Assembly: GCF_023509015.1 (NCBI RefSeq)
Contig: NZ_CP094975.1
Location: forward strand, 5,387,501-5,451,500
Length of the DNA stretch: 64,000 nucleotides
Source of the DNA: Pseudomonas abieticivorans
GTDB lineage: Bacteria; Pseudomonadota; Gammaproteobacteria; Pseudomonadales; Pseudomonadaceae
Direction of reading: 5' to 3'
Of the stretch, positions 35,374-51,731 are shown in pieces. A model generated the notes under the pieces. It was not told the DNA's origin. It ran no database searches and was given only the letters and a program-made list of their open reading frames with translations. Position numbers and translations under genes: made by a program. Each line of letters opens with the position of its first letter. Position 1 is the stretch's first letter.

Positions 35374-35406
35374 CCCCGGTTAACCACGTCGGTTAGCCGG
35401 GGTTCG
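35374..35406 (+). terminator. pstS-pstC intercistronic hairpin, attenuator-like
   Basis: CCCCGGTTAACC (35374-35385) pairs with GGTTAGCCGGGG (35391-35402) with one G-T wobble and a 5-base loop, followed by a T-rich run further downstream. It probably stops a share of transcripts or protects the pstS mRNA, giving more binding protein than permease. Confidence 0.65.
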
Positions 35407-35425
35407 TGTTTTGCGAGTGGATGAT

Positions 35426-36418
35426 ATGACAGAGAACACGCAGTACATGAGCACCCAAGCCCGTAAAGTCGATGAGTCTGAAGCGCGCGCCGCGCGCGAC
35501 CAGCGTCACGACCTGTGGTTTCGCCGCTCGATGATGGGCGCCGCGATGCTGGTGTTGCTCCTTTTGCTGAGCATCGCAGGCTCTACCCTGTGGGGCGGCA
35601 GTGAAGCCTTCCGTACCTTCGGCTGGAGCTTTTTGACCAGCACCGATTGGGACGTGGTCAACGGAAAATTCGGCGCCGTGGTCCCCATCTACGGGACCCT
35701 GGTGACCTCGTTGCTGGCCCTGCTGATTGCAGTGCCGGTGAGTTTTGGCATTGCCATCTTCCTTACCGAAGTGGCGCCGCCGTGGTTGCGCATGCCGATT
35801 GCCTCGGCGGTGGAGCTGCTGGCCGGCATCCCTTCGATCATCTACGGCATGTGGGGCCTGTTCGTGTTCGGCCCGTTCATGGCCGCGCACCTGGCGCCGT
35901 GGATCAACGACTACCTGGGCGCCTTGCCGCTGATCGGCACGCTGTTCCAGGGCCCGCCGCTGGGCATCGGCATGCTGACTGCCGGCATCGTGCTGGCGAT
36001 CATGATCATCCCGTTCATTACCTCGGTGATGCACGAGGTGTTTCGCAGCGTGCCCACCACCCTCAAAGAGTCGGCGTATGCCTTGGGCAACACGACCTGG
36101 GAAGTGGTGTGGGACATCGTGCTGCCCTACACCCGCTCGGCTGTGGTAGGCGGGGTATTCCTGGGCCTGGGCCGCGCCTTGGGCGAAACCATGGCGGTGA
36201 CCTTCGTGTTGGGCAACGCGCAACAATTCTCGGCCTCGTTGTTGATGCCCAGCAGCTCGATCGCCTCGGTCATCGCCAACGAATTCAGCGAAGCCTACAC
36301 CGACCTGCACCGCTCGGCGCTGATCGGGCTGGGCTTCTTGCTGTTTGTCGTCACTTTCATCGTGCTCGCCCTGGCGCGGCTGATGCTGATGCGCTTGTCG
36401 CGTAAAGAGGGTCTATGA
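35426..36418 (+). CDS. pstC: PstC phosphate ABC permease
   Basis: 330 residues from ATG 35426 (the next in-frame ATG is 35447). Six membrane helices with the type I permease loop MHEVFRSVPTTLKESAYALG and GRALGETMAVTFVLGNA match PstC. The GIPSIIYGMWGLFVFGPF block is also a PstC hallmark. It pairs with PstA to form the inner-membrane channel. The TGA overlaps the pstA ATG by 4 bp. Confidence 0.95.
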   Translation: MTENTQYMSTQARKVDESEARAARDQRHDLWFRRSMMGAAMLVLLLLLSIAGSTLWGGSEAFRTFGWSFLTSTDWDVVNGKFGAVVPIYGTLVTSLLALLIAVPVSFGIAIFLTEVAPPWLRMPIASAVELLAGIPSIIYGMWGLFVFGPFMAAHLAPWINDYLGALPLIGTLFQGPPLGIGMLTAGIVLAIMIIPFITSVMHEVFRSVPTTLKESAYALGNTTWEVVWDIVLPYTRSAVVGGVFLGLGRALGETMAVTFVLGNAQQFSASLLMPSSSIASVIANEFSEAYTDLHRSALIGLGFLLFVVTFIVLALARLMLMRLSRKEGL

Positions 36419-37287
36419 ACGACAGCGAACGGCTGTACCGCGTACGCCGCTACAAAAACTGGGTGGCAATGGGCTTGAGCTGCGGCGCCACCGCGTTCGG
36501 CCTGCTGTGGCTGATCTGGATTCTGCTGACCACGGTGATCAACGGCTTCCAGGCCTTGAACCTGGCACTGTTCACCCAGATGACTCCGCCACCGGGCACC
36601 GAGGGCGGCCTGGCCAACGCCTTTTACGGCAGCGCCTTGATGTCGGCGTTGGCCCTGGTGATCGGCACTCCCATCGGCCTGATGGCCGGCGTGTGGCTGG
36701 CCGAGTTCGCCCGCCACAGCAAGCTGGGCAATACCGTGCGGTTCGTCAACGACATCCTGTTGTCGGCGCCGTCCATCGTGCTGGGCCTGTTTATCTATAC
36801 CGGGGTGATCTTGCCCCTGAACCACTTCAGCAACCACCAGATGGGTTTCTCGGCCATCGCCGGTGCCCTGGCCCTGGCCTTGCTGGTGATTCCGGTGGTG
36901 GTGCGCACCACCGATGAAATGCTCCAGCTGCAACCGTCGACCATGCGCGAAGCCGCGCTGGCCCTGGGTGTACCCCAGTGGAAACTGACCCTGCAGATCG
37001 TGCTGCGCGCGGCCAAGGCCGGCGTGGTGACCGGGGTCCTGCTGGCGCTTGCGCGCATCACCGGTGAAACCGCGCCGCTGCTGTTCACCGCCTTTGGCAA
37101 CCAGTTCTGGAGCAGCAACCTGCTCAAGCCGATCGCCAGCGTGCCGGTGGTGATCTTCCAGTACGCCATGAGCCCCTTTGATGACTGGCACGCCCTGGCC
37201 TGGGCCGGCGCCCTGGTGCTGACCCTGTTCGTGCTGGTGCTGAGCCTGCTCTCCCGTTTGATTCTTTTGCGCAATAGGTCCCATTGA
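36415..37287 (+). CDS. pstA: PstA phosphate ABC permease
   Basis: 290 residues, starting [20 protein letters not shown]. Six helices are visible; family motifs are [40 protein letters not shown] and the [20 protein letters not shown] loop. It forms the heteromeric permease with PstC. The ATG overlaps pstC and the TGA overlaps pstB (TGATG), so the three are translationally coupled. Confidence 0.95.
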
Positions 37288-38060
37288 TGACGAGCCTTGC
37301 CCAAGAACGCACCAAGATCCGTGTGCGCAACCTGGAATTTTTCTACAACGATCAGCGTTCGCTGAAGTCCATCGACATGGACATCCCCGAAAAGCGCGTG
37401 ACCGCCATCATCGGCCCGTCGGGCTGCGGCAAGTCGACCCTGCTGCGGGTGTTCAACCGTATCTACGCGATGTACCCCAAGCAGGAAGCCAAGGGTGAAG
37501 TGCTGCTCAACGGCGAAAACATCCTGGCGCCGGGCTATTCGATGAACCGCCTGCGCAGCCACGTGGGCATGGTGTTCCAAAAGCCCGTGCCGTTCCCGAT
37601 GTCGATCTACGACAACATCGCCTACGCGGTGCGCCACCACGAAAAACTCGGCCGCCGCGAGATGGACGAGCGTGTGGAGCAGGCCTTGCACGGCGCGGCG
37701 CTGTGGGGCGAAGTGAAAGATAAACTCAAGCAAAGCGCCCAAAGCCTCTCGGGTGGCCAACAGCAGCGCCTGTGCATCGCGCGTACCATTGCGCTCAAGC
37801 CACAAGTGCTGCTGCTGGATGAACCGACCTCGGCGCTGGACCCGATTTCCACCGGGCGCATCGAGCAGTTGATCACCGAGCTCAAAGAGCAGTTCACGGT
37901 GATCATCGTGACCCACAACATGCAACAGGCGGCGCGCTGTTCCGATTACACGGCGTTCATGTTCATGGGTGAGCTGATCGAGCATGGGGACACGGACACG
38001 TTGTTTACCAACCCGGCCAAGTCGCAAACCGAAGACTACATCACTGGGCGTTTCGGCTGA
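37287..38060 (+). CDS. pstB: PstB phosphate ABC ATP-binding protein
   Basis: 257 residues from ATG 37287 (shared with the pstA stop). Walker [19 protein letters not shown], signature [17 protein letters not shown], Walker [14 protein letters not shown] and the H-loop [14 protein letters not shown] are intact; the Cys in CSD is a PstB feature. The PstB-specific [17 protein letters not shown] segment is present. No phoU follows; the next gene is convergent. Confidence 0.96.
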
Positions 38061-38101: not shown

Positions 38102-39784
38102 TCAGGCATGGGTGGCGATGTAATGCGTCACGAACACCACCACCACGCCCGCCACCAACGCCACGTACGGCAACACCCCCGCCCGTTTCTGCGCCGCATC
38201 CTGCAAATACAGATCCTCTGCCGCTTCAGCCGGGAACTGGCCCTTGTCTTGCCCATAATGGCGGAACAAGAACACCGGGATGATCAACAGTGCCAGCACC
38301 AAACCCGTCACCAGCGTGCCGCTGCCCCAGATGTCGGCGCCCAGGCCCATGCACGCCAGGTTGACAAAGCTCAACAGGGCACCTGCCGCCAGCAGCAAGG
38401 TCGGCGCCTTGTAGGGGCGTTCCCATTTTGGTCGGTCCAGGCGGTGAATCCAGCCGGCGTTCAGGTTCAGGAAGTTGAAGATGATGTAGCTGACGTTCGA
38501 CGCCGCCAGCACGAACACGTAGTCCGACATCAACAGCAGCACCAGGTTGAAGCACAGGTCGGTCCACATGGCCGCCGTGGGGGCGCCGTGTTCGTTGGCG
38601 CGGCCCAGGTAGCGCGGCAGCCAGCCATCGCGAGAGGCCTGGTACAGGGTGCGCGAGGAGCCGGCCATGGAGGTCATGATCGCAAGCAGGGTGGCCAGCA
38701 CCAGCATGATCAGCACCACGTTCTGCACCAGCTTGCCGCCGCCGATGCTCTGGGCCATGACCGTGCCCACGCCCATGCCACTGTAGATGTCCGGCGCGAG
38801 CATGCCGCTGTAGACCGCAGGCGTGGTGATCACGCCTGCAGCGTCGGTGACGGCCGGGGTGACCAGTTGGCCCAGGCCCAGGTTGGCCTGGAACGCCAGG
38901 GGCACCAGGGTGAACACGGCGATGCACAACAGGCCTGCGTAGAAAATGGCCTTGAAGGTGTCGCGTTTCGGGTCCTTGAATTCGCGGGTGTAGCACACCG
39001 CGGTTTCAAAGCCGTAGGTCGACCAGGCGGCCATGAACAGCCCGCCGGCCATCAGCGTCCAACCCGAAATATCCCAGGCGCCGTCTACCACATTGCCAGC
39101 GGCATCATGGGCCAGGGGCGCCAGGGGCAGGAAGTTGATGTGCGGTACGTCGCCGGTGATCAGCGGCACGATGCCCACCAGCACCAGCGGGATCAGCGCG
39201 GTCACGCCCAGTACTAACGTCAGGCGCGCCGAGCGCAGGATGCCGCCGTGCTGGATGGCGAACACCCCCAGCAAGATGGCCGCACCGAGCACGAAGGTGG
39301 CGTTGATGCGCAGCGCCAGGCCGCCCTTGAGCATGCCCAGGTCCACCAGGGTCAGTTGCCAGGTGTTGATCACCGCGTCCGGGGCAAACAGTGCGCTGAG
39401 CATGTAGCCCGCCGCCAGGCCCGAGCCGATGGACAATACCGGCGACCAGGCCAACCAATTGCACCATACCGACAGCGGCGCGATCAGCTTGCTGTAGCGC
39501 ACCCAGGCCACGGCGCCGTACACCGAGGCGCCGCCGGACTTGTTGGGGAACAGGCCGGCGATCTCGGCGTAGGTGAAGGCTTGGATAAAGCCGAAACTGA
39601 TCGACAGAATCCACACGATCCAGGCCGGTTTGCCCACCGTGGCGGCAATCGCGCCGATGGAAAACAGCACCAGCGCGGGCACGCCACTGGCGACCCAGAA
39701 TGCCCCGCGCCAATCGATTTTGCGTTGCAGTGAGCCGGATGCCTGGGCGGCCGGCGCGATCTGATCAAGCGTTGCAGCGTCCAT
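38102..39784 (-). CDS. APC-superfamily amino acid/amine permease, candidate methylamine-cluster transporter
   Basis: 560 residues with about 12-14 membrane helices. The first helices carry GVPALVLFSIGAIAATVGKP and FGFIQAFTYAEIAGLFPNKS, the APC family pattern. Start ATG 39784 has AAGGGGA upstream. It is transcribed in the same direction as and just after tdm (78 bp gap), so it probably imports a methylated amine or amine oxide. In Rhodobacterales the TMAO importer is the ABC system TmoXWV, absent here; replacement by an APC carrier is inferred from position only. Confidence 0.82.
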   Translation of the reverse strand: MDAATLDQIAPAAQASGSLQRKIDWRGAFWVASGVPALVLFSIGAIAATVGKPAWIVWILSISFGFIQAFTYAEIAGLFPNKSGGASVYGAVAWVRYSKLIAPLSVWCNWLAWSPVLSIGSGLAAGYMLSALFAPDAVINTWQLTLVDLGMLKGGLALRINATFVLGAAILLGVFAIQHGGILRSARLTLVLGVTALIPLVLVGIVPLITGDVPHINFLPLAPLAHDAAGNVVDGAWDISGWTLMAGGLFMAAWSTYGFETAVCYTREFKDPKRDTFKAIFYAGLLCIAVFTLVPLAFQANLGLGQLVTPAVTDAAGVITTPAVYSGMLAPDIYSGMGVGTVMAQSIGGGKLVQNVVLIMLVLATLLAIMTSMAGSSRTLYQASRDGWLPRYLGRANEHGAPTAAMWTDLCFNLVLLLMSDYVFVLAASNVSYIIFNFLNLNAGWIHRLDRPKWERPYKAPTLLLAAGALLSFVNLACMGLGADIWGSGTLVTGLVLALLIIPVFLFRHYGQDKGQFPAEAAEDLYLQDAAQKRAGVLPYVALVAGVVVVFVTHYIATHA

Positions 39785-39862
39785 CGTGATCCCCTTTCTT
39801 TGAATGATGGTGGCGGGGCAGATATCGCAAGGGTTAAGGCCGATCTAATTGTTAGGGGCGTT

Positions 39863-42205
39863 TCAAGCGCGGACCCGGCTCTTGGTCGGGTCGTGGAAAA
39901 TCGGTGCGGTGACGGTGGCGGCGATGCGCTTTTGCTGGCCGTCCAGCTTGCCCACCTCCACCTGCGTGCCCAGTTCGGCATGGCCGATGTCGATGCGGCA
40001 CAGGGCAATGCTCTTGCCCAGCAGCGGTGAACGACAGGCGCTGGTGACCACGCCCACCTGGGCCCGGCCCACGCGCACGCAGTCGCCGTGGGCGGCCACC
40101 TCGTTGCCTTCAAGTTCCAGGCCAACCAGCCGGTGCTGTGGGTGCTCGCTGCGGCGCAGCAGGGCGTCGCGGCCGATAAAGTCACAGGTCTTGCTTTTGA
40201 GCGGCACGCAAAAACCGATGCCGGCCTCGAACGGGTCGGTCTGGTCGTCGAACTCATGGTCGGCAAACACCAGCCCCGCTTCGATGCGCAACATGTCCAG
40301 GGCGTCCAGGCCTAGCGGGGTCAGGCCCAGCGGCTGGCCTGTTTCCCACACCCGTTGCCACAGTTGCGCGGCATCGCTTGGGTGGCACCAGATCTCATAG
40401 CCCAGCTCGCCGGTATAGCCGGTGCGGGTGACCATCAGCGGGCAACCGTCGTAGCCTTCCAGGCGGCCATTGAGCAGGCGAAACCAGCCCAGCTCCTCGA
40501 TGCCGGGCTGGGTGGCCGGGGTCCAGATCAGTTGGCTGAGCAACTCGCGGGCCCGCGGGCCTTGCACGGCAATGTTATGGACCTGCTCGCTGGCGGACTT
40601 GACCCACACCTTCATGCCCAGCTTCTGTGCCTGTTCGCGCAGCCACACACCGGCGTAGTCTTCGCCGCAAACCCAGCGGAAAGTGTCCGGGCCCAGGCGC
40701 AGCAGGGTGCCGTCGTCGAGCATGCCACCGTGCTCGTAGCACATCGCCGAATACACCACCTGGCCCACGGCCAAACGCGTCACGTCGCGGGTCAGGCAGT
40801 ACTGCAGCAGGGCTTCGGCGTCGGGGCCCAGCACGTCGAATTTGCGTAAGGCCGAGAGGTCCATCACCGCCACCTGCTCGCGGCAGGCCAGGTATTCCTC
40901 GGTGGCGCCGTACCCCGCGTAGTGGCTGGGCAGCCAGTAGCCGCGGTAGTCGATGAAGTGGCGGGTCAAGTTCGCCAGTTGCGGGTGGAAGCCGCTTTCG
41001 CGGGTGAGCTGTGGTTCTGCGTCTGGGGTTTTTCGGCTGGCCATGGCGATCGAAAAGCGCTCCTTGGCGCCGTACACACGAATGTGGATGTCGGTAGGGT
41101 CCCAGCCATTGGCCGGGTCGATGTCGTCGGGGCAAGCGCTGCTGGCGCAGACCAGGTCGCTGGTGGCGCGCATCAGCACGTAGTCGCCGGGGCGTGACCA
41201 AGGTTCGTCCAGGGCGATGCGCTGGTGCGCGGTGACCTGGGTGTTGAAGAAAAAGTTGATCGCCGGCCAGCCACTGCGCGGTGCCACGCCATAGGGCGCC
41301 AAGGCGCGGCTGAGGTTGTCGCTGCAGTTGTCATGGCCAAAATAGCCTTGGCTCTCGTAGTAGCGCGCGGTGCAGGCCAGCGAGAACGAATCGTGGCGCC
41401 CGACGGTGTCGCGCAGCACTTCCAGCATCGGCTGCATCTGGCGGTCGAAGAATTTGCTGAACAGCCCGGGCGCGGGGTAGGCGCTGCCATTGAGGGTGCG
41501 GGTGGCGGTCTGGTCCAGGTCCAGCTCCAGGCCGTTCTCAAGCTCTGCCAAGCGCAAGGCGACAAAGTCCGAGCATTGCCGGCCGGCCACGTCCAGTACC
41601 TGGATGTACTCGCCGGCGCGCACCGTGTAGCTGTGGGCGGTGCCGGCGCGTACCACGAATTCGTCGATGGGGTCGGCCAGTGGGTCGGGCAACGGCGGCA
41701 CCCAGATCTCAGGGGTGCGCGCCCGTTCGATAATCAGCGCCAAATCCGTTGCCGCACCTTGCACGTCCACTGGGGTGGGCCCCCCGGGCGCGGCGGCGAT
41801 CAGCAGCAGGGCGCTGTCGGTCACAAAGCGCCGGCGCTGCCCGGCCGGGGTTTGCTGGCCCCACAGGCTTGCCGCCGCAGGCAAATGGCGCACATCCACC
41901 TGGTGTGCCTGCAGGCGTTTGCGGGCCAGGGCAAAGGGGTATTCGGGGCGTTGCAACTGGCCGGCCACAAACAGGCTGGCCGCCGAGCCCTGCAAGCCCA
42001 GGGCGCCCAGGGCGTCGCGGCCCTGAGCATCGAAGGCCAGCAGTTCGCAGGCTTGCAGGCCTTCCAGGTCGACGATTTCGAGGTGGTCGCCGGCGGCCAG
42101 CTCGATCAACAGGAAACCGCCGCCACGCACAATATGCCGCTCGATGCCCGGGCTGCGCCGGTACAGGCCAGGCTCTCGCGGGCGGCTGATCAGGGGAGCG
42201 TTCAT
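39863..42205 (-). CDS. tdm: trimethylamine N-oxide demethylase (DUF1989 + GcvT-like)
   Basis: 780 residues from ATG 42205, with GAGGGGGG upstream. Residues to about 390 contain DUF1989, the zinc-binding domain (VRAGEYIQVLDVAGRQCSDF, GHDNCSDNLSRALAPYGV, ASSACPDDIDPANG), and the rest is a GcvT/tetrahydrofolate-binding domain (MDLSALRKFDVLGPDAEALL, VTRTGYTGELGYEIWCHP). This two-domain order is that of characterised TMAO demethylase (Tdm) of Methylocella. It converts TMAO to dimethylamine and formaldehyde, the latter captured as methylene-THF. Adjacency to tmm and folD supports the call. An additional N-terminal ~190-residue region precedes the conserved core. Confidence 0.88.
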   Translation of the reverse strand: MNAPLISRPREPGLYRRSPGIERHIVRGGGFLLIELAAGDHLEIVDLEGLQACELLAFDAQGRDALGALGLQGSAASLFVAGQLQRPEYPFALARKRLQAHQVDVRHLPAAASLWGQQTPAGQRRRFVTDSALLLIAAAPGGPTPVDVQGAATDLALIIERARTPEIWVPPLPDPLADPIDEFVVRAGTAHSYTVRAGEYIQVLDVAGRQCSDFVALRLAELENGLELDLDQTATRTLNGSAYPAPGLFSKFFDRQMQPMLEVLRDTVGRHDSFSLACTARYYESQGYFGHDNCSDNLSRALAPYGVAPRSGWPAINFFFNTQVTAHQRIALDEPWSRPGDYVLMRATSDLVCASSACPDDIDPANGWDPTDIHIRVYGAKERFSIAMASRKTPDAEPQLTRESGFHPQLANLTRHFIDYRGYWLPSHYAGYGATEEYLACREQVAVMDLSALRKFDVLGPDAEALLQYCLTRDVTRLAVGQVVYSAMCYEHGGMLDDGTLLRLGPDTFRWVCGEDYAGVWLREQAQKLGMKVWVKSASEQVHNIAVQGPRARELLSQLIWTPATQPGIEELGWFRLLNGRLEGYDGCPLMVTRTGYTGELGYEIWCHPSDAAQLWQRVWETGQPLGLTPLGLDALDMLRIEAGLVFADHEFDDQTDPFEAGIGFCVPLKSKTCDFIGRDALLRRSEHPQHRLVGLELEGNEVAAHGDCVRVGRAQVGVVTSACRSPLLGKSIALCRIDIGHAELGTQVEVGKLDGQQKRIAATVTAPIFHDPTKSRVRA

Positions 42206-42216
42206 AGGCACCCCCC

Positions 42217-43578
42217 TCAGGCGCGCTTGGCGGTGGCAGGTTCGGCCAGGTACGCGGCCATGGAATCGTCCAGTGCATCCAGCCACGGCGTGTGGTGCCC
42301 GGGCGACTGGGTGCCGGTCATCAACGAGCGGTAGGACTTGTTGCGGTAGCCCATGATGTCTTCGTACTTGTCGTGCTTCCAGGCCAGGAAGGTGGCGTTG
42401 ACGCCGGCAATGTCGAAGCTGGGGTAGTCGGTGGCGTCCACCAGGTCCTGGATGTAGGCGCCCTGGAACTCGAACATCTGTTTGGCGGTTTCCAGGGTTT
42501 CTTCCTGGGCGCGCAGGGCCAGGTTCTGCGCCTGCATGGTGGCCTTGTCGGGCACCACGATGCGCCCCAGGATCACGTCGCGGGCATACCAGGCCTGGGC
42601 GTCGAACATGTTGAAGGAATACCACTGGTCTTGCATGCCCAGGTACATGAAGCGTGGGTTGTCTTCCCACAACACGCCCTTGTACAGCTGCAACGGCCAC
42701 AGGCGGTTGGTGGTTTTCAGCGCCAGGTCGTCAGGCAGGAAGGGGAAATGATGCTGGTAGCCGGTGCACAAAATCACCGCGTCCACGGACTTGTGGGTGC
42801 CGTCGGCAAAGTGCGCCACCTTGCCTTCCAGGCGCTGCAACATGGGCTTTTCTTCCCAGTTGGCTGGCCATTGGTAGCCCATGGGCGCACTGCGGTAGCA
42901 ACTGGTGATGCTGCGCGCACCGTACTTGTAGCATTGCGAGCCGATGTCTTCGGCCGAGTAGCTGGCGCCGATGATCAATACGTCGCGGCCTTTGAATTCC
43001 AGCGCGTCGCGAAAGTCATGGGCGTGCAGGATACGCCCGCCAAAGCTGGCAAAGCCTTGCAGCTCCGGCACGTTGGGGGTGCTGAAGTGCCCGCAGGCGT
43101 TGATCACGTAGTCAAAGTCCGAGGTGTCGGTCACGCCGCTGGCGTGGTCGTGCGCGGTCACGCTGAACACCTTGCGGGCCTGATCCCAGACAACGCTGCG
43201 CACCGCGGTTTGGAAACGGATATAGGGGCGCACGCCGGCCTTGTTCACCCGGCCCTGAATGTAATCCCAGAGCACTTCGCGCGGCGGGTAGGAGGCAATC
43301 GGCCGGCCGAAGTGTTCGTCGAAGCTGTAGTCGGCGAACTCCAGGCATTCCTTCGGCCCGTTGGACCACAGGTAGCGGTACATGCTGCCGTGCACTGCCT
43401 CGCCATGTTCATCCAGACCGGTGCGCCAGGTGTAGTTCCACATGCCGCCCCAGTCTTTCTGTTTTTCGAAGCAGACGATCTCGGGAATCTCGGCGCCCCT
43501 GTCCCGTGCCGATTGGAAGGCCCGCAGTTGCGCCAGCCCGCAAGGGCCGGCACCGATGATAGCGACACGTGTGTTCAT
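42217..43578 (-). CDS. tmm: trimethylamine monooxygenase (bacterial FMO)
   Basis: 453 residues; AAGGAG precedes the ATG at 43578. The FAD motif GAGPCG (9-14), the FMO signature [11 protein letters not shown] (179-189) and the NADP motif GASYSAED (204-211) are in order. The sequence follows Methylophaga/Roseobacter Tmm closely, including [20 protein letters not shown] and [17 protein letters not shown]. The enzyme oxidises trimethylamine to TMAO with NADPH and oxygen, and can also act on dimethylsulfide and indole. It lies 11 bp upstream of tdm, whose substrate it makes. Confidence 0.94.
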
Positions 43579-43590
43579 GGCTGCATCTCC

Positions 43591-44481
43591 TTAAAGGGTG
43601 CCTTGCGCGGCCCACTGTTGGCGCGCGGCGATCAGGGTGTTGTTCATTAGCAAGGCAATGGTCATCGGGCCGACGCCGCCGGGTACCGGGGTGATGGCGG
43701 ATGCTTTGGTCAACGCGCTGGCATAATCGACGTCACCCACCAGGCGGCTGCTGCCGCCCACGCTGAGGCGGTTGATGCCCACGTCGATCACCACGCAGCC
43801 GGTTTTCAGCCAACTGGCATCGATCAGGTTCGGTCGGCCCACGGCGGCCACCACAATGTCGGCCTGGCGGCACAGGGCGGCGGCATCCAGGCTGCGCGAG
43901 TGCACCACGGTCACGCTGCAATCGGCCTGTAACAACAGGGCGGCCATGGGCTTGCCAACGATGTTGGAGCGCCCGACCACCACCGCATGTTTGCCGCGCA
44001 AGTCGCCCAGGGTGTTTTTCAGCAAGCGCAGGCACCCGGCGGGGGTGCAAGGCGTGAGCACGTTGCGACCTTGGCTCAGGCCACCGACGTTCTCGCTGTG
44101 GAAGCCGTCCACGTCCTTGGCCGGGTCGACGCTTTGCAGCACGGCGTTCTCATCGATGTGGGCCGGCAAGGGCAGTTGCACCAGGATGCCGTTGACCGTG
44201 CTATCGGCGTTCAATTGGGCGATCAGGTCCAGCAGTTCGGCAAGGGTGCAGGTGGCGGGCAGGGCATATTCCAGTGAGGCGATGCCCACTTCGCCGGCGC
44301 GCAGGATCTTGTTGCGCACGTACACTTGGCTGGCCGCATCGCTGCCCACCAGGACCACGGCCAGGGCCGGTTGCAAGCCTTGCTCCTTGAGGCCTAGCAC
44401 TTGCTCGCGCACCTCGGCCAACACTTGGGCGGCCGCCGCCTTGCCATCGATGACCTGGGGCAATGCCTGGGCGCCGGTCAT
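43591..44481 (-). CDS. folD: FolD bifunctional methylene-THF dehydrogenase/cyclohydrolase
   Basis: 296 residues. The catalytic Lys58 is in [15 protein letters not shown]; the folate motif [15 protein letters not shown] motif [13 protein letters not shown] and the C-terminal [15 protein letters not shown] are intact. It converts methylene-THF to formyl-THF. Located between purU and tmm with a 4-bp overlap with purU, it is probably a C1-catabolic paralogue that handles formaldehyde released by amine demethylation, distinct from the housekeeping copy expected elsewhere. Confidence 0.95.
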
Positions 44482-45344
44482 GGGAAAATCACCGTCTTGT
44501 CGACGTTGATGAACACCCGGTGTTGCAGGTGGTATTTGAGCGCCTTGGACAGGGCGATGGTTTCGGTGTCACGGCCAATGGCGACCAGGTCATCGGGCAG
44601 GCAGGCGTGGTCCACACGCTGGATTTCCTGCTCGATGATCGGGCCCTCGTCCAGGTCGCTGGTGACGTAGTGGGCGGTGGCACCGATCAGTTTCACGCCG
44701 CGTGCATAGGCCTGGTGGTAGGGCTTGGCGCCCTTGAAGCCGGGCAAAAACGAATGGTGGATGTTGATCGCCCGGCCGCTGAGCTGCTTGCACAGGTCGT
44801 CGGAGAGAATCTGCATGTAGCGCGCCAACACCACCAGGTCGGTCTGGGTGTCGTTGACGATGCGCATCAACTCCGCCTCTTGGGCGGCCTTGGTCTCCTT
44901 GGTCACGGGCAGGTAGATGAAGCGGATGCCTTCGCGTTCCACCATGGGCCGCAGGTCCAGGTGGTTGGACACGATGGCTGTGATGGTCATGTCCATCTCG
45001 CCCTTGTGGTGGCGGTACAACAGGTCGGCCAGGCAGTGGTCGAACTTGCTGACCATCAGTAACACCCGGGTGTGTTGGGTGCTGCTGTGCAACTGCCAGT
45101 CCATGTCGAAGGGCACGCCGACGTCGTCGAAGCCCTGTTTCAACGCCTCGAAATCACCGGCCACGCCGGCGTTGAAACGGAACACCGCGCGCATGAAAAA
45201 GCGGCCGGTGAACTCGTCGTCGAACTGCGACAGCTCGCTGATGTAGCAGGCGTGATCCGCCAGGTAGGTGGTCACCGCGGCGACAATGCCAGAGCGGGCC
45301 GGGCAGCTGACGGTGAGGATGTAGTGGGGTGCTGCAGTGTTCAT
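44478..45344 (-). CDS. purU: PurU formyltetrahydrofolate deformylase
   Basis: 288 residues from ATG 45344, AGAGG upstream; a TTG at 45353 is less likely. The N-terminal ACT domain ([20 protein letters not shown]) is followed by the formyltransferase fold with [20 protein letters not shown] and [17 protein letters not shown], holding the catalytic Asn-His-Asp set. It hydrolyses 10-formyl-THF to formate and THF, which closes the THF cycle of demethylation. Overlaps folD by 4 bp. Confidence 0.94.
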
Positions 45345-45451
45345 CAAGATCAACCTCTGTGCGTAATTGGCCTGGGGGAGCGGCGGTCCGGCATCCTGGT
45401 TTCATTCGCGAAAACGGCGCCGCGGTGCATCAGGTGTTCGGCGGTGCTCGT

Positions 45452-45475
45452 TTCGCGGATTAATCCGCTCCTACA
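45452..45475. repeat. single REP sequence, TGTAGGAGCGG type (inverted)
   Basis: TTCGCGGATTAATCCGCTCC followed by TACA is the inverted form of the REP found at 6002. It lies in the gap between the GcvT-like gene and purU, so it interrupts the amine cluster and may separate two transcripts. Confidence 0.8.
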
Positions 45476-45490
45476 GGGGGCGGGGCGTGG

Positions 45491-46621
45491 TCAGCCTTTG
45501 GCGGTGCGCTTCTTTTTCTCGGGGTCATCGAAGGGCAGGGTGTGGGTCACGGCCTTGACGTGCAGGCTGCCGCGCACTTCAAGGGCGATGTCCGAGCGGG
45601 CGAACCCAGGCTCCAGGCGCGCAATGGCCATGGAGCGTTCGGTCAGGCGCGAGTACATGCCGCAGGTGATCAGCCCCACCTGGCGGCCGTCATGCCACAA
45701 GGTGTCGCCACCTTGGGCGGCGAGGTGGCCGTCCAGCAGCACGCCGAAGATCTTGAAGCGCTCCTGGCCCTGGCGCCGGTAGTGTTCGCCGGCGCCACGA
45801 AAGGCTTGCTTGCCCGGTGACACGGTGAAGTCCAGGCCAAGCTCCCACAGGGTGTCGCCCGCCTTCTGGTCGGCGAAGGGGTACATCTGCGAGTTGTCGT
45901 AGGGGAAGAACAACAGGTAGCTTTCCACCCGCAGCCAGTCCAGGGCGGTAAAGGCGCAGGGGATGATGCCGTGGCCCTGGCCCTTGTCCAGGATGGTGTC
46001 CCAGATCAGCGGTGCATCGGCGGCCTTGCAGAAGATTTCGTAGCCGCGCTCGCCGGTGTAGCCGGTGCGCGAAATCATCACCGGGCGGTCGAACAGCTTG
46101 GTTTGCAGGTGATGGAAGTACGGCAGGTCACGAATGCCCGGCACGTGTTCGGCCAGAAAATCCACCGCCTGCGGGCCTTGCAACGACAGGTCGTGCAGGT
46201 CGTCGTCGAACAGCACCGCCACCTGGCGGCCCTGGGCCGAACGAATCAGCATCTCGTAGCCGGTGCCGGCGCCGTGCACCACCAAAAAGGCGTTGGGGCC
46301 AGTGCGGTAGACGATGCAGTCGTCGACGAAGGTGCCGTCTTCATCCAGCATGCTGGCGTATACCGACTTGCCGGGGTACAGCTTGCTCATGTCGCGGGTG
46401 GTGGCGTAGTCCAGCAGGCTCTCGGCGTGGGGGCCCACGTAGTGGACCTTTTTCAGGCCCGAGACGTCCATCAGCCCTGCGTGGGTGCGGATCGCCTGGT
46501 GGTGGTCGGCAAGGTCCGATGCGTAGGTCCAGGCGGTGGGCATGCCGTTCCAGTCTTCCAACTGGGAGCCTAGGGCCAGGTGCCTTTCACGCAGTGCGCT
46601 GGTGCGCCAGGAGTGAGCCAT
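45491..46621 (-). CDS. GcvT-like THF-dependent methyltransferase/demethylase of the dimethylamine operon (DmmD-type)
   Basis: 376 residues with the aminomethyltransferase fold: MDVSGLKKVHYVGPHAESLL, DCIVYRTGPNAFLVVHGAGT, SLQGPQAVDFLAEHV and ISRTGYTGERGYEIFCKAAD. GcvT-type proteins bind tetrahydrofolate and capture a methyl-derived C1 unit. It is the last gene of the dimethylamine monooxygenase set, as in the dmm operons of marine bacteria, and presumably accepts formaldehyde from DMA demethylation. It resembles DMSP demethylase DmdA in fold, but context favours amine metabolism. The subunit letter is from memory. Confidence 0.8.
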   Translation of the reverse strand: MAHSWRTSALRERHLALGSQLEDWNGMPTAWTYASDLADHHQAIRTHAGLMDVSGLKKVHYVGPHAESLLDYATTRDMSKLYPGKSVYASMLDEDGTFVDDCIVYRTGPNAFLVVHGAGTGYEMLIRSAQGRQVAVLFDDDLHDLSLQGPQAVDFLAEHVPGIRDLPYFHHLQTKLFDRPVMISRTGYTGERGYEIFCKAADAPLIWDTILDKGQGHGIIPCAFTALDWLRVESYLLFFPYDNSQMYPFADQKAGDTLWELGLDFTVSPGKQAFRGAGEHYRRQGQERFKIFGVLLDGHLAAQGGDTLWHDGRQVGLITCGMYSRLTERSMAIARLEPGFARSDIALEVRGSLHVKAVTHTLPFDDPEKKKRTAKG

Positions 46622-46651
46622 GGGGGTGTCCTCTTCTTGGGTAATGGGGGG

Positions 46652-47662
46652 TCAGGCGTCGTACTGGCTGAGCCAGTCGACCAGGGTCTGGCGGTAGCGG
46701 GTCATGCCCTTGTAATCGGCGATCGGCGCCGGCAGGTCGCGCAGCACGCGGTGCAGGCGGGTGGCCCACTGCGGTTGGGTGGCAAGCTCGGCCATGCTGA
46801 TCAGGTAGGTGCGGATGCTGAACATCAGCGCGTTGCTGCGGGGCAGGCGCACCATCAGTTGCAGCTCCACGCGCAGGTGCACCAATTGCCCGACGTTTTC
46901 AGGCGTCACGCTGCCGCGCTCGGCGCCCCACTGGTGGTAGGTTTCCGGCGAGGTGTCCAGGCGCGGGTTGATGGTCAGGGTCCAGTTCAGCCGGCGTACC
47001 GGCTGCTCGACCTGGATGTGCAGCAGGTATTTCAGGGCCCGGTCGAACACGCCCAGTTGATGGGCCATGGGCACCGGCGAATGCCATTGCTTGAAGCTCA
47101 TGCCGGCATCGAAGGCCAGGGACCAGTCGGCGGGGCCGGTGACGATGCCGGCGTCCATGTACAGGTCATTGTCGCGTTGGTCGAGCAGGGCGAAATCGCC
47201 TTGTGCCTGGCGGCCGATGAACTCCAGTGGCTCGCACGGCAGGGTGCTGGCGTCGCCGAAGGTGAACGCCTGGTCAATGCCCAGTGCCAGGTTGCGCCAG
47301 TGCCAGCGGTCGCCGTCGCAGCGCAGTTGGTACCACTGCGGGTAGTCGCTGGCCAGTTGCTCCATGATCATCTGCAGGGCGTCCCAGGCGGCGGTCTGCA
47401 TGTGCGGCATGACCAGGCAGCGGCGTGGGTCTTTGTCCAGTACCAAGGCGCGTTCGGCCATTTCCGAGCGGTAATGTTCGTCGATGTCGAAGCGGTGCTC
47501 GAACACCGAGCCCGGGTCGCGCGACACCGCAGGCTCCAGGTTCACCGAGTACATGTACTCGTCTTGCGGGAACGGAAACGGGAAGCGCTGGATGGCCGCG
47601 GCGCTGTTGGCGAAGGTGAAGCCGTCGCGGTAACTTTCCTGGGGCTTGAAGGTCAGGCTCAT
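46652..47662 (-). CDS. heme-dependent oxidative N-demethylase (DUF3445), dimethylamine monooxygenase catalytic subunit
   Basis: 336 residues. The sequence from KPQESYRDGFTFANSAAAIQ through CLVMPHMQTAAWDALQMIME and WHSPVPMAHQLGVFDRALKY to TYLISMAELATQPQWATRLH is the DUF3445/HODM family pattern. These enzymes use a PAS-fold heme site to demethylate secondary amines oxidatively; in Dmm they turn dimethylamine into methylamine and formaldehyde. It is preceded by its electron-transfer subunits in one operon. Published letter naming of dmm subunits is not certain to me, so no symbol is given. Confidence 0.88.
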   Translation of the reverse strand: MSLTFKPQESYRDGFTFANSAAAIQRFPFPFPQDEYMYSVNLEPAVSRDPGSVFEHRFDIDEHYRSEMAERALVLDKDPRRCLVMPHMQTAAWDALQMIMEQLASDYPQWYQLRCDGDRWHWRNLALGIDQAFTFGDASTLPCEPLEFIGRQAQGDFALLDQRDNDLYMDAGIVTGPADWSLAFDAGMSFKQWHSPVPMAHQLGVFDRALKYLLHIQVEQPVRRLNWTLTINPRLDTSPETYHQWGAERGSVTPENVGQLVHLRVELQLMVRLPRSNALMFSIRTYLISMAELATQPQWATRLHRVLRDLPAPIADYKGMTRYRQTLVDWLSQYDA

Positions 47663-47672
47663 GGCGCAATTC

Positions 47673-48596
47673 CTAAAGGTCGAGAAGCAAAGGGCCGGCG
47701 CAGCGCGACACGCAAGGCATCAGGCTGTCGGCATGCTGGGTGGCGTCGAGCACGTGGTCGCGGTGCTCCACGGTGCCTTTCAGGTAGCGGGTGTGACACT
47801 GGCCGCACACCCCGCCACGGCACAGGTTGGGCACCTCCACGCCGCAGGCTTCCAGGGCTTCGAGCAGGCTTTGTTCGGCGCCCACCTGCAACTGGCGGCC
47901 GCTGCGGGCCAGTTCCACCAGGAACGGTTGGCCGGCGGCGGGTGCGGTAAACGCCTCCCAGTGCACGCGGTCGTCTGGCCAGCCTTGCAGGCGCGCCTGT
48001 TCGCGCAGGCTGAGCAACAGGCTCTGCGGGCCGCAGGCGTACACGTGGCTGCCCAGTGGGCGATTTTTAAACAGCTGCGCGGGGTCCAGGCGCCGTTGCA
48101 CACTGTCGTAGGTGTGCAAGCGCGCGCCCAACTGTTCGCGCAGTTGCGGCAGGTAGGCGTCACTCACCCCGGTGCGGTAGGCGTAGTGCAGTTCGAATTC
48201 GGCGCCGCGGCGTTGCAACTCGGTGCAGTAGGCCAGGAACGGCGTGATGCCGATGCCGCCGGCCACCAGGATGTGCAACTGCGCGGTGCCGTGCAGGGCG
48301 AACAGGTTGGCCGGTGGCGACAGGCGCAGCGTTTGGCCCACCTGCAGTTGGTCGTGCACATAGTGCGAGCCGCCGCGTGATTGCTCCTGTCGGCGCACGG
48401 CGATGCGATAGTGGCGGGTGTCGGCCGGGTCGCTGAGCAGCGAATAGGCATTGCGCAGGCCCGGCAGGTGAACTTGCACGTGGCTGCCGGCCGAGAACCC
48501 CGGCAAGCGCCCGTTGAGCGGCTCGAAGGTGACCTCGCGCACGGCGCTGGTAAGGTCGCGCAAGGCGGCCACGCGCACCTCCAGAAATGCGCTCAT
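47673..48596 (-). CDS. ferredoxin-NAD(P) reductase subunit of dimethylamine monooxygenase
   Basis: 307 residues from ATG 48596. An FMN/FAD barrel (RNAYSLLSDPADTRHYRIAV), the nucleotide domain (ILVAGGIGITPFLAYCTELQ, VYACGPQSLL) and a C-terminal plant-type 2Fe-2S domain with LCRGGVCGQCHTRYLKG and a last Cys in MPCVSRC give a phthalate dioxygenase reductase/VanB architecture. It passes electrons from NAD(P)H to the heme subunit encoded next. The start overlaps the preceding stop by 4 bp. Confidence 0.9.
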   Translation of the reverse strand: MSAFLEVRVAALRDLTSAVREVTFEPLNGRLPGFSAGSHVQVHLPGLRNAYSLLSDPADTRHYRIAVRRQEQSRGGSHYVHDQLQVGQTLRLSPPANLFALHGTAQLHILVAGGIGITPFLAYCTELQRRGAEFELHYAYRTGVSDAYLPQLREQLGARLHTYDSVQRRLDPAQLFKNRPLGSHVYACGPQSLLLSLREQARLQGWPDDRVHWEAFTAPAAGQPFLVELARSGRQLQVGAEQSLLEALEACGVEVPNLCRGGVCGQCHTRYLKGTVEHRDHVLDATQHADSLMPCVSRCAGPLLLDL

Positions 48597-49033
48597 GGCC
48601 GTGCCTCGGCAAACGGCTGGTCGGCGTCGCGGCACACGCCCAGGTAGGCGCCCAGTCGCTGGGAAAAATGCGTGCGTACCTCCAGCCCCACGCCGCAGTG
48701 CTGGCAGGTCAAGGTGTCGGCCAAGGGGCTGTTCTGGGTGGTGGTGCAATGCACGCAGTACACCGGGCGGGTGCTGGCGTCGGTCAACAGCAGGTCGATT
48801 TCGTTTGCCTGCAAGCCGTGCTCGCGGGCCAGGCGGTGGCCTTTCCAGATAAAGGCTTCATCGCCTTCAATAATCAGGTGCAGCCCCATGTGCGCCTGTT
48901 TCAGGCGCTCTTGCAGAGGTTGTCCGTCGCCCTGGCGCACCACCAGTGGCTGGCTGCCGGGGCGCTGGCGAGTGGGGCGATAGCACGGCACGCTCGGCAA
49001 GGTCTTGTGCTGATTGCGGGGTGCGTCGGCCAT
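48593..49033 (-). CDS. small DmmA-family subunit of dimethylamine monooxygenase
   Basis: 146 residues from ATG 49033 (AGGA 8 bases upstream; ATG 49039 is too close to it). The C-terminal half has a zinc-ribbon-like CVHCTTTQNSP...CQHCGVGLEVRTHFSQRLGA, matching the family annotated as dimethylamine monooxygenase subunit DmmA (name from memory). It is the first gene of the dmm transcript and coupled to the reductase gene. Its role may be assembly or electron transfer. The divergent region before it contains a CCTAC...GTAGG dyad. Confidence 0.8.
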   Translation of the reverse strand: MADAPRNQHKTLPSVPCYRPTRQRPGSQPLVVRQGDGQPLQERLKQAHMGLHLIIEGDEAFIWKGHRLAREHGLQANEIDLLLTDASTRPVYCVHCTTTQNSPLADTLTCQHCGVGLEVRTHFSQRLGAYLGVCRDADQPFAEARP

Positions 49034-49170
49034 GGGCATCTTCCTGTGCTTGCTCGTTAATGACGCGCCCGGTGGCCGCATGGCCTTGTGTTGGTGCGCG
49101 TCGGCAGGCTTTCCTGCTGGGGATAATAATTTCCCATGGTGAATTTTTGCTCAATCCACCACAGGAGATA

Positions 49171-49186
49171 CCTACAAAGGGGTAGG
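49171..49186. promoter_or_regulatory. possible operator between the dmm operon and the kinase gene
   Basis: CCTAC-AAAGGG-GTAGG is an inverted repeat whose complement contains TACCCCT, fitting the NarL heptamer TACYYMT. It sits in the divergent gap (49034-49255) of a cluster encoding a NarL-type regulator, so it is a candidate binding site. Single occurrence and short arms keep confidence low. Confidence 0.35.
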
Positions 49187-49255
49187 GGGCGTTCAATGGG
49201 CCGGCAGGGCATGGAAGTTGCTGTCTAAAAGCCAACGAAGGCTGGGAGCATTGGC

Positions 49256-50362
49256 ATGATCGAACAGGCGGGCACGTGGCGGATGCATCGGTGGGCAGGC
49301 GGCTGGTTCGCGCCTGCCGTCGACCCCGTGCGCCTGGGTGAACTGCAGGCCGAACTGCTGCTGGCGTTGCTGGACGAACCGGGTTCGTGGGAACCTTTGG
49401 TGCGCTTTATTCAGGCGCTGGCCGCCTTGATCGGTGCGCCCCTGACCCTGGTGCAGGACATGGAAGGGCTGCCCGCGCCGCTGCAATGTCCGCACGAAAC
49501 CTGCGAGCAAGGCGACTGCCCGTTGCGCCTGGCCACGCCAGCCAGTGGGGCCTGCGGGCGGTGCCGCGGCCAGGGGCGCCAACGGCAATTGTGTGTGCTG
49601 CCGGGCACCGGCGTGCTGGTGCTGCACGGGCGCGGGCAGCGCATCGTGCACGCCTTGCAGCGCTTGGCGCCGATGCTGGCGGCGGCCTGCCAGGGCGTGC
49701 GCCGCCAGCGTGCCCGCCAACACTTGCAGCGCCATGGCCACAACAGCGCGCTGGCCCGCGAGCTGCACGATTCGGTGGCCCAGCAACTGGGTTTTCTGTC
49801 GTTCCAGGCCAGCCGCCTGCAAACCCAATTGCAACAGCCGCAGCAGGCCCAGGCACTGCTGCGTGAACTGCGCCGCAGCCTTACTGGCCTGCAGCGCCAG
49901 GTGCGCGAACTGATCACCAATGCCCGCCTGACCATGGACGGGCGTTCGCTGCGCCAGGCCCTGGCCGATTCGCTGGACGAGTTCGGCCGCCGTTGCCAGA
50001 TCGCCTTCGAACTGGACAACCGTGTGCCCGAGGGCCTGCTGGACCCGGATCACGAATTGCAGATCCTGCAGATCGTGCGCGAAGCGCTGGCCAATATCGT
50101 GCGCCACTCCCATGCCCGCACTGCACGGGTCGAGCTGCGCCAAGGCCAGGATGGCGTGCTGCAGGTGCAAGTCGATGACGATGGCACCGGCCTGCGCCCA
50201 GCCTCGACCGAACACAACCATTACGGGCTGTCGATCATGCGCGAACGCGCGGCGGCCATCGGCGCCACCTTGCGTATCGAGTCGCTGCAGCCCCACGGTA
50301 CCCGCATCGCATTGTCCCTGGCCTGCCGTGTGCAGGCCCATCAGGAGGATCAGGTTGGATAA
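49256..50362 (+). CDS. soluble histidine kinase with a cysteine-rich sensor region (NarX/NreB-like)
   Basis: 368 residues, GGAG before ATG 49256. There is no membrane helix. Residues 30-130 look GAF-like and contain Cys78, 83, 88, 100, 103 and 113 (QCPHETC, GDCPLR, GACGRC). The HisKA_3 helix has phosphoacceptor His171 (ARELHDSVAQQLGFL), followed by the HATPase (REALANIVRHSHART, DDDGTGL, GLSIMRERAA). The cysteines could hold an Fe-S cluster or zinc, as in oxygen-sensing NreB; that is inference. It overlaps the response regulator gene and is divergent from the dmm operon. Confidence 0.9.
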   Translation: MIEQAGTWRMHRWAGGWFAPAVDPVRLGELQAELLLALLDEPGSWEPLVRFIQALAALIGAPLTLVQDMEGLPAPLQCPHETCEQGDCPLRLATPASGACGRCRGQGRQRQLCVLPGTGVLVLHGRGQRIVHALQRLAPMLAAACQGVRRQRARQHLQRHGHNSALARELHDSVAQQLGFLSFQASRLQTQLQQPQQAQALLRELRRSLTGLQRQVRELITNARLTMDGRSLRQALADSLDEFGRRCQIAFELDNRVPEGLLDPDHELQILQIVREALANIVRHSHARTARVELRQGQDGVLQVQVDDDGTGLRPASTEHNHYGLSIMRERAAAIGATLRIESLQPHGTRIALSLACRVQAHQEDQVG

Positions 50363-50978
50363 CGCTACCCTGCTGCTGATCGACGACCACCCGCTGTTCC
50401 GCCGCGGCCTGGCCGAACTTTTTGCCCACAGCGGTGATTTCACTGTGGTGGGCCAAGCCTCCAGCGGGCGCGAGGGCATCAACCTGGCCTGCCGGCTGGC
50501 ACCCGAACTGATCCTGCTCGACCTGCACATGCCGGGCTTGGGCGGCTTGCAGGTGCTCGACGAGTTGCGCCAGTTGGAGCTGGGTTGCCAGGTGATCATC
50601 CTGACCGCGTCCCTTGAGCGCGGCGAGTTGATGACCGCCCTGCGCTTGGGCGCCGAAGGCTACTTGCTCAAGGACACCGAGCCTGAGGCGCTGCTCGATT
50701 ACGTGCGTGGCTGCAGCAAGGGCTCGGTGGTGCTCGACGACGCCCTGGTGGCGCTGCTCGCCGACCAGTCGCCATTGCCCATGCCACCGGCCGATCTCAC
50801 TGAACGCGAAGCCCAGACCCTGGCGTTGATCGCCAGCGGCCTGAGCAACAAGCTGATCGCCCGCGAGCTGGGCATCAGTGACGGCACGGTGAAAATCTAT
50901 GTGAAGAACCTGCTGCGCAAGTTCGACGTCAACAGCCGCCTGGAACTCGCCGCCCGAGTTCACCGGGCCGGTGCCTGA
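50355..50978 (+). CDS. NarL/FixJ-family response regulator
   Basis: 207 residues. The start is TTG 50355, with AGGAGG at good spacing (50344-50349), and it overlaps the kinase stop; no ATG/GTG gives a full receiver domain. The receiver has acidic pocket IDDHPLF, phospho-acceptor Asp56 (LLDLHMPGLGG) and Lys near YLLKDTEPE. A C-terminal LuxR-type HTH reads LTEREAQTLALIASGLSNKL and ELGISDGTVKIYVKNLLRKF. It probably activates the adjacent methylated-amine operon. Confidence 0.93.
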   Translation: MDNATLLLIDDHPLFRRGLAELFAHSGDFTVVGQASSGREGINLACRLAPELILLDLHMPGLGGLQVLDELRQLELGCQVIILTASLERGELMTALRLGAEGYLLKDTEPEALLDYVRGCSKGSVVLDDALVALLADQSPLPMPPADLTEREAQTLALIASGLSNKLIARELGISDGTVKIYVKNLLRKFDVNSRLELAARVHRAGA

Positions 50979-50996
50979 CCTGACAGGAGCTGCCTG

Positions 50997-51731
50997 ATGG
51001 CCCAGTTGTTCCCCACGCTTGAACGGCCCGCCAGTGCGCTGGACGGTTTCCCCATCGCCTTGTTGCGCCTGGATCGCCATGGCCGCATTCGCGAGCACAA
51101 CCCGGCCTGGTGCGCGTTGATGGAAGCCAGCCGTGTTGGCACTGAGCTGTCAGCCTATTTGCATCAGGAAGACCAGGCACTGTGGCGCAGTTGGCTGGAG
51201 GATCCGGCCGAGTCGCACGAACCGCGACGCCTGCGCTTCATCCGCCCCCAAGGTGATCTGCGCTGGTTTGACCTGCACGCCCGGCGCCAAGGCAGCGACT
51301 GGTTTTTGGCCATCACCGACGCCACCGCGCAGCGCCGCCAAGAGCTACAGCGCGAAGCCCACCACCGCGGCGCCGCCAGCTTGCTCAACGGCCTGCCGGG
51401 GCTGCTGTACCGGGGGCGCAACAACCGCCACTGGACCATGGAGTTCGTCAGCGACGGCTGCCTGCAACTGACCGGCTACCCGGCCGCCTACCTCACCAAC
51501 ACCCATGAGCACAGCTTCAGCTCACTGATCTTGCCCGAGCACGCCGACTATGTTTGGGCCGGCGTGCAATGCGCCCTGCTCAAGCGCCAAGCGTTCGAGC
51601 TGACCTACCGCATCCGCTGCGCAAACGGGCAGGTCAAGGACGTGTGGGAGAAGGGCGTGGGCATTTATGCCGACACGGGCGAAGTGCTGGGGATAGAAGG
51701 CGCCATCTTCGAAATCAGCGCTGCGCCGTAG
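50997..51731 (+). CDS. tandem PAS-domain protein without output domain
   Basis: 244 residues. Two PAS domains are visible: residues 15-115 (GFPIALLRLDRHGRIREHNP) and 130-240 (MEFVSDGCLQLTGYPAAYLT, FELTYRIRCANGQVKDVWEK). No kinase, GGDEF or HTH follows. It is 18 bp after the response regulator gene, so probably co-transcribed; it may sense a ligand or redox state and modulate the kinase by protein contact. Function is inferred from position. Confidence 0.85.
   Translation: MAQLFPTLERPASALDGFPIALLRLDRHGRIREHNPAWCALMEASRVGTELSAYLHQEDQALWRSWLEDPAESHEPRRLRFIRPQGDLRWFDLHARRQGSDWFLAITDATAQRRQELQREAHHRGAASLLNGLPGLLYRGRNNRHWTMEFVSDGCLQLTGYPAAYLTNTHEHSFSSLILPEHADYVWAGVQCALLKRQAFELTYRIRCANGQVKDVWEKGVGIYADTGEVLGIEGAIFEISAAP

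Follow-up and report, generated by a model that had tools for sequence, protein, structure and literature searches.

We analysed a 64,000-nt stretch of the Pseudomonas abieticivorans chromosome (contig NZ_CP094975.1, positions 5,387,501 to 5,451,500; here called the window) and found nine open reading frames, all on its minus strand at 38102-49033, in the order dmmA-dmmB-dmmC-dmmD-purU-folD-tmm-tdm-permease, which very probably encode a catabolic pathway for methylated amines, judging from the families to which their products belong. Divergent from the dmm genes, a putative plus-strand operon at 49256-51731 encodes a NarL-type two-component pair, a histidine kinase (HK) and a response regulator (RR), followed by a double-PAS protein, and this HK-RR-PAS operon is probably the switch of the pathway. 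For the overall explanation, a catabolic operon and its switch, our estimate of the probability is about 0.8. The preliminary description of this stretch had placed a contiguous one-strand cluster at 38102-49033 and read it as a route from trimethylamine (TMA) via trimethylamine N-oxide (TMAO) and dimethylamine (DMA) to monomethylamine (MMA), with folate-linked one-carbon (C1) oxidation, in a Pseudomonas. The genes lie as it placed them, the main products score above curated cut-offs or resemble enzymes of solved structure, and family membership supports the route; the range is too narrow, leaving outside it the plus-strand neighbours that belong to the same picture.

Methylated-amine genes in two chromosomal modules

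Families were assigned by the cut-offs of Pfam and of curated NCBIfam models, together with matches to solved structures, giving the following features.

38102..39784, minus strand: APC-superfamily permease of the TMAO permease type (tmoP); NF053774, 847 bits against a cut-off of 690; PF13520
39863..42190, minus strand: tdm, TMAO demethylase with DUF1989 and GcvT domains; NF053776, 1172 bits against 1100; solved structure 9q59
42217..43578, minus strand: tmm, trimethylamine monooxygenase; NF058570, 821 bits against 675; solved flavin monooxygenases
43591..44481, minus strand: folD, methylene-tetrahydrofolate dehydrogenase/cyclohydrolase; NF010790, 519 bits against 508
44478..45341, minus strand: purU, formyl-tetrahydrofolate deformylase; TIGR00655, 322.5 bits against 286; start picked by eye
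45491..46621, minus strand: dmmD, GcvT-like protein; GCV_T, 206.6 bits; under the cut-offs of the NCBIfam models listed
46652..47662, minus strand: dmmC, alpha subunit of haem-dependent oxidative N-demethylase (HODM; DUF3445); PF11927, 242.7 bits against 25
47673..48602, minus strand: dmmB, reductase subunit with a 2Fe-2S domain; Fer2, 45 bits; DmmA-like_N marginal, 35.9 bits against 33
48593..49033, minus strand: dmmA, small DMA monooxygenase subunit; NF041259, 112.7 bits against 60; PF22289, 70.3 bits

Tdm, whose start codon was picked by eye within a longer frame, aligns with the solved Tdm 9q59 at 936 bits across residues 10-774 and carries a metal-site-like C-x12-H-x2-C at residue 273, residues of the type that forms the metal site of Tdm. 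Tmm matches the solved flavin monooxygenases 6hns (871 bits across residues 1-451) and 2xve (780 bits), as well as 6kbw, a chain named trimethylamine monooxygenase (587 bits); at the positions that we presume to form its active site, Y207 and W319 are present, residue 72 is Ser, residue 78 is Cys and the closest Asn is residue 73. DmmC matches the solved HODM 5lte, presumably from P. mendocina, at 624 bits over residues 1-335 of 336, and this alpha subunit is alike with no difference seen, the other subunits not having been set against the structure. An upstream ATG at 49081 is a possible alternative start of dmmA. The names dmmB and dmmD rest on domain and position, without a named model; the GcvT-domain partner of dmmABC is called DmmD in the nomenclature given in PMC5520151. 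Passages of that article report that dmmABC alone is enough for E. coli to turn over DMA, its abstract states that dmmD is needed for growth of Ruegeria pomeroyi on methylated amines, and its text mentions that the dmmD disruption was possibly polar and that the gene has a role against formaldehyde toxicity. An APC permease does stand in place of the TmoXWV transporter, as described earlier; the idea that this is an unusual swap was rejected, the protein passing the curated model NF053774 and so being of a known type, and a figure legend of PMC5520151 names 'tmoP, TMAO permease'.

The genome is a single contig of 6,715,763 bases. The preliminary description had considered the monomethylamine genes missing and had called for a genome search, which found all of them together on the same chromosome: gmaS, mgsABC and mgdABCD, with a second purU-folD pair and an ammonium transporter gene (amt), lie at about 1.749-1.763 Mb (L109:5398-19078), and gmaS is 3.68 Mb from tmm by coordinate. 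Within this 20-kb locus the genes form two divergent halves, gmaS-mgsA-mgsB-mgsC-amt and purU-folD-mgdA-mgdB-mgdC-mgdD, with an HTH_3-cupin gene between them. GmaS is the one protein of the genome above the TIGR03105 cut-off (669 bits against 470), and its best solved match is a chain named glutamate-methylamine ligase (662 bits). The Mgs proteins have Glu_synthase, GXGXG and GATase domains. For the Mgd proteins the scores (cut-offs in brackets) are SoxB-like 462 (529), SoxD domain 100.8 (27), SoxA-like 857 (1164) and SoxG-like 37 (144), so that the SoxA-, SoxB- and SoxG-like members fall under sarcosine-oxidase cut-offs, as relatives would; TIGR01372 picks the second SoxA-like protein, near gmaS. 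The Mgs and Mgd names come from domains and order, no listed NCBIfam model bearing them.

We propose the following course, in which each activity is predicted from family membership. The minus-strand genes would form one catabolic operon, whose permease would import TMAO. Tmm would oxidize TMA to TMAO, and Tdm would cleave TMAO to DMA, its GcvT domain perhaps transferring the released formaldehyde unit to tetrahydrofolate. DmmABC would then convert DMA to MMA, with DmmD capturing the C1 unit on folate, and FolD and PurU would carry C1 units to formate. MMA would enter the remote N-methylglutamate module (GmaS, MgsABC, MgdABCD) and yield ammonium and a third C1 unit. With the MMA module on the chromosome, the strain is predicted to convert TMA completely to ammonium and C1 units rather than to release methylamine, which corrects the earlier claim of partial use.

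The cluster is fairly ordinary for the genus and a known kind of gene set, and the interest lies mainly in the adjoining sensor. Among 398 Pseudomonas genomes (the genus sample), Tmm was above its cut-off in 76 and gmaS was found in 102, of which 49 have no Tmm; Tmm, the PAS gene and gmaS occur together in 50. These 50 include the genome studied here: 36 of them have gmaS no more than 50 kb from tmm, 4 (the present genome being one) have the two genes on one contig but farther apart, and in 10 the two are on separate contigs. In most of these genomes the locus is thus joined, and the arrangement here is a dispersed version of it. A complete TMA pathway has already been mentioned for Pseudomonas sp. 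GX19020, in a passage of PMC13390433.

We also fetched the loci of the best-scoring 80 of at least 591 Tmm relatives (L014-L093). The closest relative of the window Tmm among them is that of P. panipatensis (83%), whose locus L014 is arranged almost identically and carries amt and mgs genes behind the permease, on the other strand. In a tree of these 80 sequences and the window Tmm, four Pseudomonas sequences (L075, L085, L086, L089) form a long-branched clade, and their flanks gave no tdm, dmm or regulator match. There seem to be two kinds of Tmm in the genus, to judge from these sequences, and the long-branch lineage perhaps serves TMAO formation only.

The divergent operon and its linkage to the pathway

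The three plus-strand genes are as follows.

49256..50362, plus strand: histidine kinase with a NarQ/NarX-like catalytic half and a Cys-rich N-terminus; HisKA_3, HATPase_c
50346..50978 (start approximate), plus strand: response regulator with REC and LuxR-type HTH domains, NarL-like; Response_reg 88.5 bits, GerE 65.8 bits
50997..51731, plus strand: double-PAS protein without output domain, candidate sensor; PAS_3 63 bits at residues 150-236, PAS_8 24 bits

The kinase residues H171, N280, G310, G312 and G324 are invariant in 36 sequences (alignment A2, 35 of 50 kinases and the window), and D59 of the response regulator is invariant in 53. Both proteins stay under curated cut-offs (kinase, NarQ 176 against 553 bits and NarX 144 against 578; regulator, NarL 217.6 against 250). 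On a hydropathy plot alone, the kinase reaches a maximum of 1.88 and has one 19-residue window above 1.6, compared with 96 in the permease. Its N-terminal cysteines (residues 83, 88, 100, 103 and 113; 49502-49594) are conserved in 28 to 34 of the 52 kinases aligned and look like a metal or redox site, which would leave room for such an input; a universal metal site was rejected, the cysteines being absent from Marinobacterium-type, Methyloversatilis and L044/L054 kinases. In the PAS protein, W146, W187 and Y204 are invariant and Y138 is near-invariant across 43 sequences (alignment A1, 42 of 48 locus PAS sequences and the window), and these residues of the C-terminal PAS domain could together enclose a methylated ammonium group as a cage. 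Its matches to solved structures are marginal (3icy, E 0.0033).

We searched the 80 loci with the window HK, RR and PAS proteins by tblastn. Out of 73 loci that contain tdm, 62 have the regulator, 48 as an ordered same-strand HK-RR-PAS triad and 14 as an HTH-PAS fusion; with the count restricted to loci whose two flanks are whole, it is present at 53 of 60. At uncut loci without tdm it is present at 0 of 5, a control from which L039 (a 4.2-kb contig cutting through tdm) and L091 (9.9 kb) were excluded. The PAS gene is opposite to tmm in 50 of the 62 loci, and the order in which the regulator genes and tmm, tdm and dmm follow one another varies among Pseudomonas, Nitrincola and Marinobacterium-type loci. 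Consequently, with both strand and order varying, the link is not one frozen block of synteny.

The genus sample points the same way. With a cut-off of 140 bits, chosen after a gap between 144.2 and 91.6 bits had been seen, the PAS gene (stand-alone or fused) was counted in 54 of 398 genomes. Fifty of these have Tmm above its cut-off, and all 54 have gmaS, which is found in 3 of the 26 genomes with Tmm but without the PAS gene. The PAS gene lies within 10 kb of tmm in 51 of the 54 genomes, on the opposite strand in all 51. Fisher tests on the genus-sample counts gave P-values of ~3e-39 and ~1e-38, with shared ancestry ignored. One of the 51 genomes, G359, has a tmm that a stop breaks into two matched pieces (G359:C1:5732823-5734045), and the PAS gene still adjoins it. 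The other three PAS genes lie elsewhere (L120, L121 and L122). At L121 an HTH-PAS fusion adjoins dmmABCD without tmm, which hints that the sensed cue may relate to the use of DMA and not to TMA alone. The dmmB and dmmD matches at that locus are each split over two frames (L121:10916-14032), which could mean disrupted genes or sequence errors.

The fusions, at L021, L037, L038, L040, L042, L043, L046, L055, L056, L058, L064, L068, L080 and L093, join the LuxR-type HTH of the response regulator and the C-terminal PAS domain in one frame of 208-259 codons (468 in L040). Their match to the response regulator begins at residue 112 or later, beyond most of the receiver domain, and the 14 loci gave no kinase match; Pfam finds GerE and PAS_3 in the L037 protein, the sole fusion checked. 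In a tree of PAS domains, 13 fusions group together and L038 stands apart, which by parsimony implies two changes or more, though support is weak. The fusion ties the PAS domain to a DNA-binding domain, which suggests that the PAS domain is the signal input.

DNA between the two operons

Two motifs lie in the intergenic DNA at 49034-49255.

49169..49184, no strand assigned: NarL-like palindrome TACCTACAAAGGGGTA (TACY-N8-RGTA), candidate operator of the response regulator
49207..49222, plus strand: sigma-54-like -24/-12 promoter GGGCATGGAAGTTGCT before the regulator operon, a recurring pattern

We compared 66 such regions, from the window and 65 loci, including three with doubtful regulator matches (L061-L063) in which neither motif occurs; the strict patterns were drawn up after the commonest words in the same regions had been viewed. 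The sigma-54-like pattern is present in 45 of 66 regions, where mononucleotide shuffles lead one to expect 0.6 and other stretches of these loci 1.2. It occurs in 44 of 52 regions from the window, the loci up to L069, L092 and L093, against 1 of the 14 others, and at 12 of the 14 fusion loci. The strict palindrome is present in 20 of 66 regions against ~0.8 expected from mononucleotide shuffles, among them those of Marinobacterium L074, L079, L082 and L084, which have no sigma-54 site. A matrix built from the 21 strict sites in these 20 regions finds sites in 51 of 66, a count that is partly circular; 31 of the 46 remaining regions score above the 95th percentile of shuffles, and the palindrome is the top matrix site of the whole window (21.9, with the next at 8.3). 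The pattern resembles the NarL 7-2-7 site and fits a NarL-like regulator, making it the predicted operator.

After the palindrome on the minus strand, inspection by eye offers TTGAGC-N17-AATTAT as a candidate dmmA promoter, and GATTGA after the palindrome is kept in 15 of 16 dmm-first regions (27 regions viewed). The promoter scan placed a promoter-like site at 49101 on the plus strand. We propose that the sigma-54 promoter would raise the level of HK-RR-PAS under nitrogen limitation, that the PAS protein and the kinase would respond to a compound of the pathway or to its oxidation state, and that the NarL-like regulator would bind the palindrome between the operons and activate the dmm-to-tmoP operon.

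Weighing the explanations and their meaning

Several observations weigh against this switch. Eleven of the 73 tdm loci have no ordered regulator (L031, L041, L057, L061-L063, L065, L067, L069, L076 and L078); L076 and L078 are short contigs, and in the Methyloversatilis loci L061-L063 the matches are weak and rearranged, with HK and RR relatives at 35% and 45% and an oppositely oriented PAS match. In 12 of the 62 loci with a regulator, PAS and tmm share a strand, and 48 of the 102 genus genomes with gmaS have no PAS gene. L120 has RR and PAS relatives adjoining the MMA module without tmm. L122 (genome G323, with no tmm above the cut-off) holds a divergent triad, its PAS protein at 36% identity, that adjoins SoxB- and GcvT-like genes and is possibly a sister system for another N-methyl compound. 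A stand-alone PAS protein was found in 2 of 11 tmm genomes of the class sample (frames of ~250 residues), and other lineages may therefore use other regulators; the A1 profile, run over 369 class genomes at E 1e-30, gave 33 matches, mostly long multidomain frames, and is thus unfit to measure the spread of the PAS protein outside the genus. The loci share ancestry and their counts are not independent, and the 80 loci, as the best-scoring, favour close relatives. In the DNA, a genome-wide scan with the operator pattern gave 5 sites, no enrichment over the 4 of the reversed control, and so names no wider regulon; the MMA module has no good operator site (best matrix score 9.5); and the promoter scan gave no dmm promoter. 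The leader of dmmA contains a terminator-like minus-strand hairpin at 49132-49166 (1 found, 0.4 expected), which covers the bases of the promoter picked by eye and may be due to chance or serve attenuation.

The HK-RR-PAS operon might instead be a redox, oxygen or nitrate sensor, present by chance or giving a secondary input. The resemblance of its kinase and regulator to NarQ and NarL and the five cysteines kept in many of the kinases speak for this, and Tmm and Dmm require oxygen. However, the linkage to tmm and tdm persists across several gene orders, the co-occurrence with gmaS points to the pathway, and the cysteines are absent from Marinobacterium-type kinases, and we consider a sensor of this kind unlikely. 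Much less probable is a pathway that ends at MMA, with TMA used in part and methylamine released: the window itself has no above-threshold gmaS-type or SoxA/MgdC-type match except tdm and dmmD, but the MMA module, with its clear GmaS, is on the same chromosome, and gmaS is present in 50 of 50 genus genomes with both tmm and the PAS gene. MMA excretion as the default was rejected on account of that module. It is just as hard to believe, if not harder, that Tmm serves production of TMAO as an osmolyte, or broad N-oxidation, instead of catabolism. A separate, tdm-less Tmm lineage does exist in Pseudomonas, but the window copy lies outside that clade and has tdm, dmm and C1 genes as neighbours.

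Compared with NarQ/NarX-NarL, the catabolic switch proposed here is alike in the catalytic half of the kinase, the NarL-like regulator and the palindrome, and differs in its scores under the cut-offs, its PAS partner, its linkage to methylamine genes and its fused HTH-PAS variants. NreABC also adds a separate sensor protein, NreA, a GAF protein where a PAS protein is found here. For the catabolic genes, Methylocella silvestris BL2 presumably has tmm, tdm and a permease beside its Msil dmm genes; the window permease and Tdm pass NCBIfam models with 'Msil' (Methylocella silvestris) in their names. That strain likewise has dmmD with dmmABC (Msil_3605, Msil_3607-3609), according to a passage of PMC5520151; here, dmmD comes directly after dmmABC, the run also includes purU and folD, and an operon with a NarL-type regulator diverges from it.

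The Ruegeria pomeroyi DSS-3 cluster (SPO1548-1588), as outlined in parts of PMC5520151 and PMC13390433, has the same enzyme steps, DmmD with DmmABC and the GmaS/Mgs/Mgd route, and it combines a TmoXVW ABC transporter and clustered genes with the AraC-type TmaR and the GntR-type TmoR; its authors state, in the section of PMC13390433 concerned, that the effector of TmaR is unidentified. In contrast, the genome studied here has an APC permease, two distant modules and HK-RR-PAS, with the HTH_3-cupin gene in the MMA module. Among the open reading frames scanned around L109 and the cluster, no AraC gene stands beside mgd and no GntR gene beside tmm, TmaR itself not having been a query and the rest of the genome not having been searched. 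A LysR gene lies at 52800-53723. On the other side of the cluster, a Fic/DOC-domain protein is encoded at 32852-34054 (minus strand), adjoining genes that by eye resemble the pst phosphate-uptake set (34336-38060).

We would give even odds to a stronger proposal: that HK-RR-PAS is a dedicated, hitherto unnamed sensor of methylated amines in Pseudomonas and Oceanospirillales-type bacteria, replacing the alphaproteobacterial TmaR/TmoR, that the ligand of its C-terminal PAS domain is a methylated amine or a pathway intermediate, and that in some lineages the system has collapsed, apparently at least twice, to an HTH-PAS one-component regulator. Among the titles and abstract openings listed by searches of the openly licensed (CC0, CC BY, CC BY-SA) PubMed Central literature, none deals with control of tmm, tdm or dmm by an HK-RR pair or a PAS protein. 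DmmC is itself a PAS-fold haem enzyme, as the title of a 2016 paper by Ortmayer indicates; if HK-RR-PAS is a dedicated sensor, it would share a fold with the DmmC enzyme.

The number of Tmm-bearing genomes in the genus sample indicates that the aerobic TMA route is frequent in Pseudomonas and is not only a trait of marine bacteria or methylotrophs. A conserved regulator that occurs naturally in two-component and one-component forms would make methylated-amine sensing in these gammaproteobacteria testable.

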